Part shown: piece after piece, positions 7,042 through 12,575 of the stretch | Position numbering within the stretch: position 1 is the first letter of the stretch | Layout of the letters: each line of letters opens with the position of its first letter | NCBI GenBank assembly: GCA_029309925.1 | Contig: JARKND010000001.1 | Location: forward strand, 2,418,001-2,482,000 | Length of the DNA stretch: 64,000 bases | Direction: 5' to 3' | From: Fulvivirgaceae bacterium JP3-4 | GTDB taxonomy: Bacteria; Bacteroidota; Bacteroidia; Cytophagales; Cyclobacteriaceae | Position numbers and translations under genes: made by a program | Notes under the pieces: model-generated | Database searches by the model: none | Told to the model about the DNA's origin: nothing | Seen by the model: the letters and a program-made list of their open reading frames with translations, nothing else

Positions 7042-9675
7042 CTATTCAGACCTCAGACTTCTGACGGGATTGAGCATTGCGGCCTTCACCGCCTGGAAGC
7101 TAACGGTAAGCAACGTAATGGCTACCGCTCCAGCCGCAGCTCCTGCAAATGCCCACCAGCTCAGTTCCGTGTGATATTCATAATTTTTCAGCCAGGTAGT
7201 CAATATGTAATAGGCAAGCGGAACTGCTATGCAACAAGAAATTATCACAAGGATTATGAACTGTTGTGAGAGCATACGCCACAGGTTGCTGACAGACGCG
7301 CCAAGCACTTTTCTTATACCGATCTCCTTCGTGCGCTGCTCGGCCACGTAGGAAGCCAGTCCAAACAGCCCGAGACAACTAATCAGGATAGCAAGTGATG
7401 CGAACACTGCAGCGAGTTTTCCAATGCGTTCTTCATTGGCAAACTTGGCCGCAAATTCCTGGTCTGCAAATTTATAGTCGAACGGAATATCCGGTATCAC
7501 CTTCATAAATACTTCTTCAATTTTTGGAAGGGCGTCCGCTGCTGCGACACCGGGAGCGATTCGCAATAATAAAACCCGTTCGTACCCGTACGTCAGATAG
7601 ATTGCTGGCTTGACAGGTTCGAAAGGTGAATTCATCACCATGTCATTGATCACGCCAACCACGTGGAAATCCTGATCGACATTCCATGCCCTGTTCGTCC
7701 AGCGGATCGTTTTTCCTACAGGCTTATCGATGTTCATGTAATCAACTGCAGCCTTGTTCAGAATAACGGCTGCACTATCACTCGCAATCTCGTCTGAAAA
7801 ATCTCGTCCCTCAATAAACTGCCATCCGACTGTGTGACCGAAATCAGCAGACACATTCAGTGTCGCGAAGCTTGCTTCAAATGAAGGATCTTTTCCCTCC
7901 CAATTGAAACCTCCATTATGTGACCACGTTCCCGTCAGGCTTCCACCCGACTCGCTGATGTGTGTCACAGCTCCGGTCTTCTTTAGCTCTGCACGAATAA
8001 CATCAGCCTTGGCATCAAACTCTCCTGATCTTTTTCTTATCACAATGAGTCCTTCCCTGTCATAGCCCACCGGTCTGTCTTTAACGAATTCTAATTGCTG
8101 ATAAATGACCGTGGTACAAATGATCAGGATGACGGAAACGGAAAACTGAATAACAACAAGCACCTGCCGCGGCAGCGATGACAACCTGCCGGCACGAAAA
8201 GTGCCTTTCAAAACGCTGACTGGCTTAAATGACGAGAGGTACAAAGCGGGATAACTTCCCGCGAGAAATCCGGTGATGAAAATAAACGCGGCAGCAGCTA
8301 TCCAGAAGAGAGGTTGAGCCAGTGGTAACGCAATTTCTTTTCCCGAAAGGTGGTTGAATGAGGGTAAAGCGATGTACACCACGAGCAGACTGCATATGAA
8401 CGCCAGTATCACTACTAAAAATGACTCACTGAAGAACTGTGTGATCAGTTGTCTCCGGACAGAACCAATGGTTTTACGGATTCCAACTTCCTTCGCTCGC
8501 TTTTCTGATCGTGCCGTGCTGAGGTTCATAAAATTGATACACGCAAGGATCAGCACAAATACACCAATCGCACCGATGAACCACACCAGTTGTACCGGAC
8601 CTGTCATCAGCTGCCCTTCCTTGTAATTTGAATATAAGTGCCAGTCCTTCATGGGCTGGAGCAGGATGTCATAATCGTATTGAAGCTCATCTTTCATGTA
8701 GTCGAGGTTGGCGATGGCCTTCATCTGTGCTTTCCGGATCGCTGCGCCTGCTTCCTCCATTGTTTTCTTTTCTGCGATTTGCACATATAAGAAGAGGAAG
8801 TGATTGTCCCAGCCTTGCCTGGTGATATAACTTGCATCCTTTTCGTAAAACGTCCACGATTGAAAGAACTGAAGACCGTACAGCGCAGTGTTTTTCGGAA
8901 AATCCTCAAACACGCCTGTCACAATGAGCTCAGTTGAATTATTGATTTTCATTGGCTTGCCGAGCGGATCAGTATCTCCAAAGAAAGCTTTCGCTGTAGA
9001 TGCGGAAAGCATCACACCGTTCAGCTCATTGAGCGCTGACCAGTTTCCATAAACCATGCTGAACGAAAACATCTCAGGTCCACCCTCCCCGATGTACATG
9101 CCGGTTTTGTTCAGCTTCTTCTCTTCCGTTGACAGGATTGCATCAAATCCACCCGGACCAGAGATCGGCACTACGTGTTTGAAATTCTCACGATACGTAG
9201 TCTGCATCTCAACGATCAGCGGATATTGGATGTACTTTTGGCCCTGGTAGTATTTATCCTGGTAGTGAAACCCCTTCGAGACTTGCGCAATGTCATTGTA
9301 GTTTCTAAAATACCTGTTGAATGACAACTCATCGTAGACCCAGAGGCCAACAAGAATTGCAACCGCCATGCCGGATGCGAGTCCTGCGATGTTGATAAAG
9401 GAATATCCGTAATTTTTCACGAGGTTGCGGAAGGCGATGATAAAGTAACTTTTGAGCATAGGCAGTGAGTTGGATGAACCGTAGTTGCGAAATGATTTAA
9501 TGAACTCGGGACGAAAGTAGCGGAGCACCGTGAGCGCGAATATCCAGTTTGCTTTCCTTAGAGATGTCAACGAGTTCTTCCGGAAGACCTCTGTCAGGTC
9601 GCCTTCGATCTCTTCCAGGTAATCTTCACGGCAGAACCAGCGAAGAAAAGCAAGTGGTCGTCTCGGTGGCTGCAT
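7042..9675 (-). CDS. MacB/FtsX-type ABC transporter permease with N-terminal prefix domain
   Basis: Inner-membrane permease of 877 residues of the MacB/LolC-like class common in Bacteroidota. The first 75 residues (RWFCREDYLEEIEGDLTEVF and on) form the permease prefix domain seen in a subset of this family. They are followed by the classic start of the core (MLKSYFIIAFRNLVKNYGYS), a MacB-type periplasmic domain, an FtsX helix bundle (EKRAKEVGIRKTIGS), a second periplasmic domain and a second FtsX bundle (EQRTKEIGIRKVLGA). No ATPase gene lies beside it; the partner must be encoded elsewhere. Its start overlaps the stop of the upstream PadR gene by one base (TGATG), which indicates translational coupling. 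Substrate unknown; roles in efflux or lipoprotein or peptide export are possible. Confidence 0.9.
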   Translation of the reverse strand: MQPPRRPLAFLRWFCREDYLEEIEGDLTEVFRKNSLTSLRKANWIFALTVLRYFRPEFIKSFRNYGSSNSLPMLKSYFIIAFRNLVKNYGYSFINIAGLASGMAVAILVGLWVYDELSFNRYFRNYNDIAQVSKGFHYQDKYYQGQKYIQYPLIVEMQTTYRENFKHVVPISGPGGFDAILSTEEKKLNKTGMYIGEGGPEMFSFSMVYGNWSALNELNGVMLSASTAKAFFGDTDPLGKPMKINNSTELIVTGVFEDFPKNTALYGLQFFQSWTFYEKDASYITRQGWDNHFLFLYVQIAEKKTMEEAGAAIRKAQMKAIANLDYMKDELQYDYDILLQPMKDWHLYSNYKEGQLMTGPVQLVWFIGAIGVFVLILACINFMNLSTARSEKRAKEVGIRKTIGSVRRQLITQFFSESFLVVILAFICSLLVVYIALPSFNHLSGKEIALPLAQPLFWIAAAAFIFITGFLAGSYPALYLSSFKPVSVLKGTFRAGRLSSLPRQVLVVIQFSVSVILIICTTVIYQQLEFVKDRPVGYDREGLIVIRKRSGEFDAKADVIRAELKKTGAVTHISESGGSLTGTWSHNGGFNWEGKDPSFEASFATLNVSADFGHTVGWQFIEGRDFSDEIASDSAAVILNKAAVDYMNIDKPVGKTIRWTNRAWNVDQDFHVVGVINDMVMNSPFEPVKPAIYLTYGYERVLLLRIAPGVAAADALPKIEEVFMKVIPDIPFDYKFADQEFAAKFANEERIGKLAAVFASLAILISCLGLFGLASYVAEQRTKEIGIRKVLGASVSNLWRMLSQQFIILVIISCCIAVPLAYYILTTWLKNYEYHTELSWWAFAGAAAGAVAITLLTVSFQAVKAAMLNPVRSLRSE

Positions 9676-10001
9676 CAGGTGAAGGAAATTTTTGGTATTT
9701 GCCTATAGAGGCTTGTTCTCAGATCATACTGACTGTCAAGCATCCGCTTGCCCAATGCAGTGATCACGTAGAATTTTTTACGTCTTCCACCACGGTCCTC
9801 TGTTATGCCTCCAAATCGCGACTTTACGAATCCTTTGTCTTCAAGTCGTTTAAGGGCAACATGCACAGCGCTTATGTTTATCTTCTTACCCTGTTTGTCT
9901 TCCAGATTTTCGAGGATGGACACGCCATAGGCTTCATCATGCAGCGCAGCAACCATGAGCAGCACGAGTTCTTCAAATTCGCCAAGGGATTGGGCTTTCA
10001 T
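9675..10001 (-). CDS. PadR-family transcriptional regulator
   Basis: A 108-residue PadR winged-helix regulator. The signature is clear: LGEFEELVLLMVAALHDEAY, then SAVHVALKRLEDKGFV in the recognition helix region, and the wing with EDRGGRRKKFYVITALGK. It lacks the long C-terminal coiled-coil extension of larger PadR proteins, so it is the short (s2-like) form. It is the first gene of a two-gene unit with the permease downstream, a pairing seen repeatedly in Bacteroidota, in which PadR represses its own operon. The divergent upstream region (10002-10193) is A/T rich and shared with the Lgt-like gene, so PadR could influence both directions. Confidence 0.93.
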   Translation of the reverse strand: MKAQSLGEFEELVLLMVAALHDEAYGVSILENLEDKQGKKINISAVHVALKRLEDKGFVKSRFGGITEDRGGRRKKFYVITALGKRMLDSQYDLRTSLYRQIPKISFT

Positions 10002-10193: not shown

Positions 10194-10964
10194 TTGATAC
10201 CTCTCGAGCCGAAAATTGGAAGTCTGGAGATTAATGTTCATCTCATTGTTGAGTATGCGGCCTTCTTCGCTGCTTACCGTTATTACGTATACCTGCGGAA
10301 ACGGAGCGTTGATTCAATTTCATCTTCAAATCGAATTTCGATAATTCTTGGTGCGGCCATTGGAGCGCTTGTTGGCTCGCGCCTGATTGGGCTCCTGGAG
10401 AATCCGCTTGCTGATTTTTCAGACATCGGTCCGCTTCAACTCTATAATGTGAAAACGATCACGGGAGGTCTCTTTGGCGGACTGCTTGGCGTAGAACTGG
10501 CAAAGCGTAGAATCGGAGAAAAAAATTCTTCAGGCGACTTGTTTACGTTCCCTTTGATCCTTGGCATATTCATCGGCCGGATCGGATGTTTTCTTTCTGG
10601 CACGAAGGAATTCACGTATGGAACACCGACTGATTTTATTTTGGGAATGAACCTGGGCGATGGCGTTCTCCGCCACCCTCTTGCGCTGTATGAATTGCTT
10701 TTCCTTATCACACTCTTTCTGTTCTTGCGAAACATACGTGCGAAAGACCGCCTCGAAAATGGAATGATCTTTAAAATTTTTATGATTTCATATTTCGGCT
10801 TCCGGTTTCTTATCGAGTTTATGAAGCCAAATTCATTTCTACTTTTCGGATTGAGCACGATTCAGTGGCTGTGTATCATCGTTTTCCTATATTACTGGAA
10901 AACAGTGCTGAAACTTGCAGGTTTTGATGCGAGGTCGCGAATACTTTCCCGATCAAATTCCTGA
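10194..10964 (+). CDS. Divergent Lgt-like (prolipoprotein diacylglyceryl transferase family) membrane protein
   Basis: A polytopic membrane protein of 256 residues (TTG start) with the outline of Lgt: GSRL at 61-64, TGGLFGGLLG near 90-99, GRIG at 128-131, RHPLALYE at 160-167 and FRFLIEF at 203-209, the last matching the Lgt RFIVEF motif with arginine 204 and glutamate 208. Compared by eye with E. coli Lgt, the conserved NFING after GRLG is here CFLSG, and the SFHGG histidine block is TITGG. Residues that matter in true Lgt are therefore replaced. I infer a paralogue acting on a related lipid or phosphatidylglycerol-type headgroup rather than the housekeeping enzyme. The next gene starts 13 bases after its stop, so the two are probably co-transcribed. 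The TTG start is uncertain. Confidence 0.75.
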   Translation: MIPLEPKIGSLEINVHLIVEYAAFFAAYRYYVYLRKRSVDSISSSNRISIILGAAIGALVGSRLIGLLENPLADFSDIGPLQLYNVKTITGGLFGGLLGVELAKRRIGEKNSSGDLFTFPLILGIFIGRIGCFLSGTKEFTYGTPTDFILGMNLGDGVLRHPLALYELLFLITLFLFLRNIRAKDRLENGMIFKIFMISYFGFRFLIEFMKPNSFLLFGLSTIQWLCIIVFLYYWKTVLKLAGFDARSRILSRSNS

Positions 10965-10977
10965 TAAAGATCTGACC

Positions 10978-12378
10978 ATGCCCACACGAAAATATACCTA
11001 CTACGACTTCACGTTGAGCCTCTGCCCGGAATGCCTGAAGCGCATCGATGCAAAAATTGTATTCGAGGATGACAAAGTTTATATGCTCAAGCGCTGCAAT
11101 GAACATGGGGCATCGAAGGTGCTGATTGCCGATGACGTGGCTTACTATAAGAACATCAGGAATTACAACAAGCCTTCCGAGACACCGTATACGTTTAACA
11201 CTAAAACACACTACGGATGTCCTTATGATTGCGGGTTATGCCCCGACCATGAACAGCATTCTTGTCTTACAGTTGTTGAGATCACTGACCGGTGTAACCT
11301 CACCTGCCCTACCTGCTATGCGGGATCGTCACCAACCTACGGAAGGCATAGGACGCTCGAAGAGGTGAAGAAAATGCTCGATGCCGTTGTGCGAAATGAA
11401 CGTGAACCTGACGTGGTGCAGATCAGCGGTGGAGAGCCAACCTTGCACCCACAGCTATTCGAGATCCTCGATTATGCGAAGACACTTCCGATCAAGCACC
11501 TGATGCTGAACACCAACGGAATCACTATTGCCCGAGATTTTGAATTTGCGAAACGACTTGCAGACTACATGCCGGACTTTGAAATCTACCTGCAATTCGA
11601 CTCATTCAGCAACGATGTGCTGCAGGTGATGCGCGGAGCAGACCTCGCTGCAATACGTGAGCAGGCACTGGCTCATCTCAACGAACTGAATTTGTCGACA
11701 ACGCTCGTGGTCACTATACAAAAAAATCTGAATGACCATGAGATAGGAACGATTATCGATTTTGCTTTGAAGCAACGCTGCGTCCGCGGGGTTACGCTTC
11801 AGCCTACCCAGATCGCGGGTCGCCTTGAAAATTTCGACACGGACGCAGACCGGATCACGCTTACTGAGGTACGCAGAAAGATCCTTGAACAATCCAGCGT
11901 GTTCAACAGTGACGACCTGATTCCTGTGCCATGCAACCCCGATGCATTGATGATGGGTTATGCACTCAAGCTTGCCGGAGAAGTTTTTCCACTCACGCGT
12001 TATGTCAATCCTGCCGACCTGCTGGATAACAGCCGGAATACAATTGTGTATGAACAGGATGCCCATCTCCACGGAAAAATGATCGAGTTGTTCAGCACGG
12101 GCAATTCTCTGGATGGGGCTGCCGAAAAAATGCACTCGCTTCTCTGCTGCCTTCCACAGATACACGCGCCATCGCTCACTTACAATAATTTGTTCAGGGT
12201 GATCATTATGCAGTTTATTGATGCGCATAATTTTGATGTGCGATCGGTGAAGAAGTCATGTGTGCATATCGTAGACAAAGATTACAACATTATTCCCTTT
12301 GAAACGATGAATCTCTTTTACCGCGATCATCGGAAAGAGGCCCTGCAAAAACTTCAACAACATGAACTCCAGAAATAA
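10978..12378 (+). CDS. Radical SAM enzyme of the MJ0619 / tetraether synthase (Tes) type
   Basis: A 466-residue radical SAM protein. The SAM-cluster motif is CNLTCPTC (cysteines 106, 110, 113). Before it lie two features typical of the MJ0619/Tes family: an N-terminal cysteine site (C16, C19, C40, with H43 in the CNEHG motif), probably rubredoxin- or zinc-like, and CPYDCGLCPDHEQHSC (C81, C85, C88, H91, H94, C96), which can hold an additional cluster. ISGGEPTLHP is the SAM-binding GGE motif. The C-terminus has the family ending SCVHIVDKDYNIIPFETMN. Characterised relatives join lipid alkyl chains (Tes) or methylate pterin precursors. The start at 10978 was preferred to an overlapping ATG at 10927, because the family N-terminus fits it. 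It lies between an Lgt-like gene and a small membrane protein. Confidence 0.8.
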   Translation: MPTRKYTYYDFTLSLCPECLKRIDAKIVFEDDKVYMLKRCNEHGASKVLIADDVAYYKNIRNYNKPSETPYTFNTKTHYGCPYDCGLCPDHEQHSCLTVVEITDRCNLTCPTCYAGSSPTYGRHRTLEEVKKMLDAVVRNEREPDVVQISGGEPTLHPQLFEILDYAKTLPIKHLMLNTNGITIARDFEFAKRLADYMPDFEIYLQFDSFSNDVLQVMRGADLAAIREQALAHLNELNLSTTLVVTIQKNLNDHEIGTIIDFALKQRCVRGVTLQPTQIAGRLENFDTDADRITLTEVRRKILEQSSVFNSDDLIPVPCNPDALMMGYALKLAGEVFPLTRYVNPADLLDNSRNTIVYEQDAHLHGKMIELFSTGNSLDGAAEKMHSLLCCLPQIHAPSLTYNNLFRVIIMQFIDAHNFDVRSVKKSCVHIVDKDYNIIPFETMNLFYRDHRKEALQKLQQHELQK

Positions 12379-12389
12379 ATAAAACCTAT

Positions 12390-12575
12390 ATGGACGGAAT
12401 CGGATCACTGATTGCATTACTTCTCAGCATCATGCTTGGGCCACCCATCATTTTCCTGATCATCGCGTTGGGCAAACGGAAAACAGACCGAAAGTTTGCC
12501 AATGTGTTTTTTATCCTTGCTGTTGCATGGCTGATCATCGGGGGTGGAATCTGCGCTACACTTCTAGGTTATTGA
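12390..12575 (+). CDS. Two-helix membrane microprotein
   Basis: 61 residues with two hydrophobic segments (about residues 5-27 and 39-58) joined by a basic turn (GKRKTDRKF), giving a hairpin with both ends outside by the positive-inside rule. There is no recognisable family. It starts 11 bases after the radical SAM stop and is followed 15 bases later by the next gene, so it belongs to the same transcript. A role as a small membrane anchor or subunit for the lipid-related enzymes upstream is inference from position only. Confidence 0.6.
   Translation: MDGIGSLIALLLSIMLGPPIIFLIIALGKRKTDRKFANVFFILAVAWLIIGGGICATLLGY

Follow-up and report, generated by a model that had tools for sequence, protein, structure and literature searches.

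The locus

Here we describe a compact three-gene unit in the genome of Fulvivirgaceae bacterium JP3-4, lying within the 64,000-nucleotide stretch of DNA that we analysed (the window). The unit encodes, in this order and all on the plus strand, an Lgt-like integral membrane protein (P0001), a radical S-adenosylmethionine (SAM) enzyme of the Tes/TrsS superfamily (P0002) and a small membrane protein of two helices (P0003) (Table 1). An initial annotation had predicted a three-gene operon at 10194-12575 with intergenic gaps of 13 bases (P0001-P0002) and 11 bases (P0002-P0003), and the operon is present exactly as described there. The Lgt outline proposed for the first gene agrees with a match to Pfam LGT at 1.8e-27. 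The motifs proposed for the second are found at residues 81-91 (CPYDCGLCPDH) and 106-113 (CNLTCPTC), together with the N-terminal cysteine site (C16-C19-C40-H43), and the membrane hairpin proposed for the third is recovered as two hydrophobic segments in P0003 (locus L001). The ATG at 10978 was chosen as the start of P0002 because most relatives start at the matching position; the longest frame opens at 10915. The three-gene arrangement is kept in many genera and is therefore more than a chance juxtaposition.

Table 1. Genes of the unit, with their positions in the window
Feature	Position	Strand	Description
P0001, Lgt-like integral membrane protein	10194..10964	+	256 aa, TTG start; Pfam LGT
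P0002, Tes/TrsS-superfamily radical SAM enzyme	10978..12378	+	466 aa; Pfam Radical_SAM and HMPTM zinc ribbon
P0003, two-helix membrane protein	12390..12575	+	61 aa; C-terminal GGGICA (Gly-x-Cys) motif

Co-occurrence and linkage of the two enzymes

Roughly one in ten of the sampled Bacteroidota genomes carries both enzymes as an inherited pair. Counting the radical enzyme as present at E <= 1e-40 and the Lgt-like protein at E <= 1e-15, we found the two genes in the identical 47 of 390 genomes of the order, while in a sample of 395 genomes from the phylum 34 carry the radical enzyme, 33 the Lgt-like protein and 31 both. Fisher tests for co-occurrence gave 7.7e-62 (order) and 2.7e-40 (phylum), values that are too small because the genomes are related and that should be read with care. 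Among the genomes listed with a match in these searches, 77 hold both genes, on one contig in 73 cases and on different contigs in four. The one-contig pairs share a strand without exception (73/73), and their genes lie less than 100 bases apart in 30, less than 1 kb in 55 and less than 5 kb in 72. Chance linkage of the pair is excluded by these co-occurrence and strand counts.

Few genomes of the phylum sample were scored for one gene only. Three of them have the radical enzyme alone: G481 and G707, whose enzymes are Tes or near-Tes proteins (493.8 and 441.9 bits, respectively, with a cut-off of 450) and show no Lgt-like gene within the 17-18 kb examined, and G509, in which an Lgt-like gene adjoins the radical gene but is too diverged for the threshold. 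Two have the Lgt-like gene alone. The protein of G578 falls outside the paired clade; that of G433 belongs to it, but no radical enzyme of the family was found in the genome. This lone gene (L291, 7653-8498) has altered conserved residues: of the sites that at least 97% of the 127 paired proteins share, 11 differ in it, and six of these 11 are invariant among the paired proteins. Given these changes and the missing radical partner, it is likely a decaying remnant.

The pairing is also seen when individual loci are inspected. We named 80 loci, which are near relatives because they were chosen as the best matches to P0002; an Lgt-like gene is present in 78 of these, and the other two, L110 and L151, start right at the edge of a contig. 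The cultivable strains Zobellia uliginosa DSM 2061, Maribacter stanieri DSM 19891 and Chryseolinea serpens DSM 24574 are represented among the 80. Where the radical enzyme has 35-40% identity (L182-L185), the Lgt-like gene lies within about 1.2 kb and is downstream, not upstream, in three of the four. In Mycobacterium branderi and M. avium the pair is plasmid-borne, and in Nonomuraea gerenzanensis it lies on an 11.85 Mb record labelled as a plasmid. A search of viral contigs, of whose 147 confirmed loci 80 are listed, gave weak radical SAM matches (best E 6e-14), which were not used. A single genus (group code f13/g47) includes two loci with an extra open frame between the Lgt-like and radical genes, of 182 aa in L049 (939-1487) and 153 aa in L046 (1033-1494).

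Several neighbours were considered and left out of the unit. Between 41 and 46 of the 80 named loci have LepA, DusB, a LolE-like permease and RbfA (identified by eye), each mostly on one and the same strand, with median distances ranging from about 0.9 to 3.2 kb; we read this recurrence as probable synteny of related genomes. The downstream neighbour P0004 (DUF4440-like) is present in the window's own locus alone among the 168 loci searched. At 7042-10001 of the window, and divergent from the operon, are genes for an 877-aa permease-like and a 108-aa regulator-like protein, both assigned by eye.

Trees of both enzymes

In a tree of 29 radical enzymes, of which MJ0619 is the only characterised one, the 23 Lgt-linked enzymes form one clade with a support of 94/80 (not starred), recovered in 92% of 200 bootstrap trees. 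L191, L192 and L179 were kept in this paired group, the first two being labelled Lgt-linked although their Lgt-like gene sits on another contig. The program warns of long branches and unlike composition, actinobacterial rows included. MJ0619 separates with L186 and L187 as a Tes clade at 100/98; the P0002 clade lies outside it and neighbours unassigned TrsS-like, methyltransferase-linked relatives. In a 32-row Lgt tree, the paired Lgt-like proteins and the G433 gene likewise form one clade (93/90, not starred), and the two other Lgt genes that the genome carries fall outside the clade of P0001. Within the paired clade, the first split in both trees sets apart the actinobacterial rows together with G509 and the next L182-L184, and both trees join G545 with G678. 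Because these deep splits match, we consider the pair to have been inherited jointly.

Part of the support that the initial annotation had asked for was a separate clade in which the Lgt-like neighbour is kept. Such a clade is found in the samples searched, at a support of 94/80 on 29 long-branched rows. Neither of the outcomes that it had named as refuting, placement in a clade of known non-lipid function or lack of conserved linkage to the Lgt-like gene, was observed.

The radical SAM enzyme

P0002 resembles two families. Its first match in NCBIfam is TrsS (NF045646), a radical SAM (seleno)protein, at 326.1 bits over residues 12-450 with a curated cut-off of 490, and its second is Tes (NF045702), at 288.3 bits with a curated cut-off of 450, so that neither cut-off is reached. 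By sequence, the closest solved relative is MJ0619/Tes (7TOL, E 1.1e-66). An AlphaFold2 model built from 32 sequences has a predicted local distance difference test score (pLDDT) of 67 and a predicted template modelling score (pTM) of 0.74. In Foldseek this model matches 7TOL and 7TOM best, at a template modelling (TM) score of 0.78 over 478-500 columns, which is a full-length match, and the remaining entries among the 50 listed reach at most 0.37 (query-normalised).

The spacings of Tes recur in P0002 at three cofactor sites: one of rubredoxin type (C16-x2-C19-x20-C40-x2-H43), one for the N-terminal cluster (C81-x3-C85-x2-C88) and one for the SAM cluster (C106, C110, C113). The ligands of each are kept in at least 139 of 140 Bacteroidota rows. 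By counting in the 7TOL alignment, M411 pairs with Met439 of Tes, a labile ligand of its C-terminal cluster; of these rows, 122 have Met at this position, 16 Leu and two Thr. At other positions the clade differs from Tes. Ile431, which aligns with Tes Tyr459 (a pairing counted in the 7TOL alignment), is Ile in 137 of the 140 rows, Glu442 stands at the position of the Tes 'PFC' Cys in 134, and 138 show the pair Cys390-Cys391; H94 and C96, found in every row (140/140), have no counterpart in the MJ0619 sequence. The remaining C-terminal cysteines of P0002 are C319 and C428. A further difference from Tes is the Lgt-like gene itself, which accompanies the P0002 clade in nearly all genomes examined.

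The initial annotation had set MJ0619 apart, as a pterin methylase, from a separate Tes. The two are one enzyme: the Tes-type GDGT-MAS is MJ0619, and the authors of its structure state that they could not corroborate the pterin role (PMC9433317). For that reason we do not take pterin methylation as the function of the family. The same study reports that Tes carried bacterial phosphatidic acid in its pockets (PMC9433317). Bacterial Tes homologues have been proposed as the source of branched tetraethers (PMC8941075), and members of the P0002 clade may sit in the count of Zeng et al., since Tes homologues of the Fibrobacteres-Chlorobi-Bacteroidetes group were there counted by BLASTP (PMC8941075). 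The accessible text of a Black Sea study names no Bacteroidota among Tes-bearing groups (PMC11868695). Our searches did return a Bacteroidota Tes protein (L186 of G481, 7864-9321; 493.8 bits, cut-off 450), with no Lgt-like gene in the surrounding 17 kb. Judged by its sequence, L186 is a candidate bacterial tetraether synthase distinct from P0002.

The TrsS-like relatives examined adjoin a methyltransferase, whereas the P0002 clade adjoins the Lgt-like gene instead. The recurrent neighbours listed for the 80 named loci include no methyltransferase; at L182, a methyltransferase-like frame lies about 2.7 kb from the enzyme and on the opposite strand. H94 and C96 are common to the P0002 clade and the methyltransferase-linked relatives (12/12 sequences compared). 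The TrsS/Tes-like relatives that stand beside methyltransferases (L175, L176 and L180) lie on plasmids of M. vanbaalenii (one) and haloarchaea (two), and the M. vanbaalenii relative in addition adjoins CcdA and a disulfide oxidoreductase. The two of these methyltransferases that were scanned match the DVU_1556 family at 136 and 130 bits, below its cut-off of 155.

The Lgt-like protein

P0001 reaches 46.1 bits against TIGR00544, with a curated Lgt cut-off of 118.9. Its model (pLDDT 87) has a single Foldseek match under E 0.001, which is E. coli Lgt (5AZB, TM 0.64). We paired residues through an alignment to 5AZB and a MAFFT alignment with L172, an Lgt of the same genome, the match between H16 and Y26 running via the L172 Tyr. 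On this pairing, P0001 keeps the equivalents of E. coli R143, G154, Y235, R239 and E243 (R129 = R143, R204 = R239, E208 = E243) and has H16, F94 and C132 for Y26, H103 and N146. Six residues are reported as required in E. coli Lgt (Y26, H103, R143, N146, G154 and R239), with variation at H103 and N146 among other Lgt proteins. P0001 thus keeps three of the six, R143, G154 and R239, and has the other three replaced. The donor-lipid site is described as lined by R143 and R239 (PMC4728403). MSMEG_5408, the second Lgt homologue of M. smegmatis, is reported to have the same two exchanges as P0001.

The genome carries two further Lgt genes, L172 with a GRFGNF motif and L173 (unpaired) with GRVGCF. 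P0001 is therefore probably dispensable for ordinary lipoproteins.

Small membrane proteins with a conserved cysteine

The third gene is no bystander: the Gly/Cys motif of P0003 recurs in most loci, a feature that had gone unnoticed in the initial annotation. A strict motif frame was defined as a small frame on the same strand and within 2.5 kb that has at least two hydrophobic segments and, in its last 26 residues, a Cys with a Gly within the two residues before it; under looser terms one hydrophobic segment sufficed and the Gly could lie within four residues. The sample comprised the 139 of 168 loci with a radical enzyme at E < 1e-40 and ten further loci, making 149, some places having been fetched twice. 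A strict motif frame is present in 127 of these, the looser terms add 14, and M. avium L181, which has two annotated ones, brings the count to 142 of 149. The seven loci that have none are L071 and L161, which are cut by contig ends, two loci fetched with little flanking sequence, for which the extended versions (L182 and L183) do show a motif protein, two fetches of one place in G450, and Nonomuraea.

The motif is concentrated next to the radical gene. Within the 139 loci, the strict motif occurs in 112 of 131 two-helix small frames lying less than 150 bases from that gene; in the control, taken on both strands of loci longer than 12 kb, 15 of 142 such frames at distances above 3.5 kb have it. 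In many loci a small gene comes immediately after the radical gene or overlaps it, with as many as four such genes at one locus (L201). The Lgt-like gene of G678 and G144 sits on a different contig, and there the small genes adjoin the radical gene.

Position -2 is mostly Gly and position -1 Ile, Val or Thr, and the sequence often reads Leu-Gly-x-Cys. Of the 161 motif frames, 151 carry a net positive charge in the segment ahead of the last helix; because of this, and following the positive-inside rule, the motif Cys should face the periplasm. The predicted geometry is that of a lipoprotein signal, for which cleavage by signal peptidase II would not be expected.

A possible two-enzyme lipid-modifying system

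The explanation we favour, although we stop a little short of calling it probable, is that the pair, usually with one to four small membrane proteins, forms a two-enzyme lipid-modifying system with the small-protein Cys as the likeliest acceptor. We read the unit as lipid-modifying because both enzyme families act on glycerolipids. The choice of acceptor follows from the retained lipid-binding residues taken together with the conserved cysteine, and a lipid tail as the possible substrate of the radical enzyme is suggested by one line of evidence, the predicted fold.

In the scheme that we infer for the chemical steps, their order and the acceptor, the Lgt-like protein would bind a diacylglyceryl phospholipid in the inner membrane through its retained arginines and would pass the diacylglyceryl group to something other than an ordinary lipobox. 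The likeliest acceptor is the conserved Cys where the last helix of the small protein is predicted to reach the periplasm. With a positive loop, a hydrophobic helix and often Leu-Gly-x-Cys, the small protein would resemble an uncleavable lipoprotein signal. The radical SAM enzyme would act from the cytosolic side like Tes, forming a carbon radical on a lipid tail, and would then join or otherwise modify that tail, a change to the peptide being an alternative. An improbable extension of this scheme is a proteolipid in which diacylglycerol would sit on the uncleaved microprotein Cys, with its tails welded to each other or to a phospholipid, to give a membrane-spanning or macrocyclic lipid covalently held by protein. 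To our knowledge, no protein-held lipid of such a kind has been found.

Several points count against the two-enzyme system. P0002 scores higher on TrsS than on Tes (326 and 288 bits) and passes neither cut-off, its model is of modest confidence (pLDDT 67), and the mycobacterial radical enzymes have no N-terminal cluster cysteines. The transferase activity of P0001 may have been lost, because Y26, H103 and N146 are replaced. The standard lipobox is Leu-Ala/Ser-Gly/Ala-Cys, from which the small-protein Cys motif differs, and a small cysteine protein was seen neither alongside the Nonomuraea pair nor close to the two genes of G450. A substrate shared by both enzymes also needs explaining, because the Cys is predicted to be periplasmic and the radical enzyme should be cytosolic. 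The lipid pathway proposed by the initial annotation accordingly stands in part: the co-inherited unit of lipid-handling families speaks for it, while its cross-linking of tails is weakened by the position of P0002 outside the Tes clade and below the Tes and TrsS cut-offs.

Coupling of the Tes kind might also operate alone, the radical enzyme joining phospholipid tails into membrane-spanning or macrocyclic lipids, the Lgt-like protein presenting lipid without catalysis and the small proteins acting as anchors. The full-length fold match to Tes and the common ligand spacings are consistent with this, as are the Met at the Met439 position in 122/140 rows, the loss in P0001 of three residues required in E. 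coli Lgt, and the branched tetraethers proposed for bacterial Tes homologues (PMC8941075). We nevertheless regard it as unlikely. The enzyme lies outside the Tes clade and under the Tes cut-off, M411 gives way to Leu or Thr in 18 rows, and the residue matching Tyr459 is almost always Ile, although Tes Y459 variants are reported to remain active (PMC9433317). A mere scaffold would not need the retained R143 and R239 equivalents, and the literature matches listed gave no membrane-spanning lipid for these Bacteroidota. By description, Mss, a bacterial membrane-spanning lipid synthase, is among the closest known systems: it is reported to condense bacterial acyl tails, and its predicted models to share the catalytic architecture of Tes, with no Lgt partner mentioned in the accessible part of that account (PMC13274423).

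A second alternative is maturation of a lipo-peptide, with the small protein as the substrate of both enzymes, the radical enzyme altering the peptide (for example, its Cys) and the Lgt-like enzyme lipidating it. The position of the small genes directly after or overlapping the radical gene, up to four in number, argues for this, as do the C-terminal Cys motif in most small proteins and the small genes that stay beside the radical gene in G678 and G144. However, no peptide-maturase family exceeds its cut-off for P0002 among the best 25 of 64 NCBIfam families, and Pfam finds no SPASM domain. The fold of P0002 is closest to Tes, the Cys is predicted to lie in the periplasm, and no small Cys protein was seen for G450 or Nonomuraea. 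Such maturation therefore seems quite unlikely to us. We give least credence to a non-lipid chemistry like that of the TrsS-like, methyltransferase-linked relatives, with the Lgt-like protein as a re-used membrane carrier: TrsS is the best NCBIfam match of P0002, those relatives neighbour its clade in the tree, and they share H94 and C96, which MJ0619 lacks, but the clade pairs with an Lgt fold instead of a methyltransferase, the single methyltransferase-like frame being the distant one at L182.

Significance

The initial annotation had considered the pathway undescribed, and our searches of the open-licence literature on Lgt, radical SAM enzymes, tetraether synthase and Bacteroidetes gave no description of the pair. 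In the text available from them, two 2022 papers on Tes left the role of its bacterial homologues open (PMC8941075, PMC9433317). To this question the P0002 clade brings a partner whose family has a known lipid chemistry, with a link that is near-obligate in the Bacteroidota samples. Together with the recurrence of the pair in three actinobacterial records and a conserved Cys as candidate acceptor, this makes the question testable in cultivable Bacteroidota. If tail coupling is true, the clade would be an added bacterial source of unusual membrane lipids; if it is not, the pair would point to another function within the superfamily. The pair may represent an undescribed lipid or lipoprotein modification.

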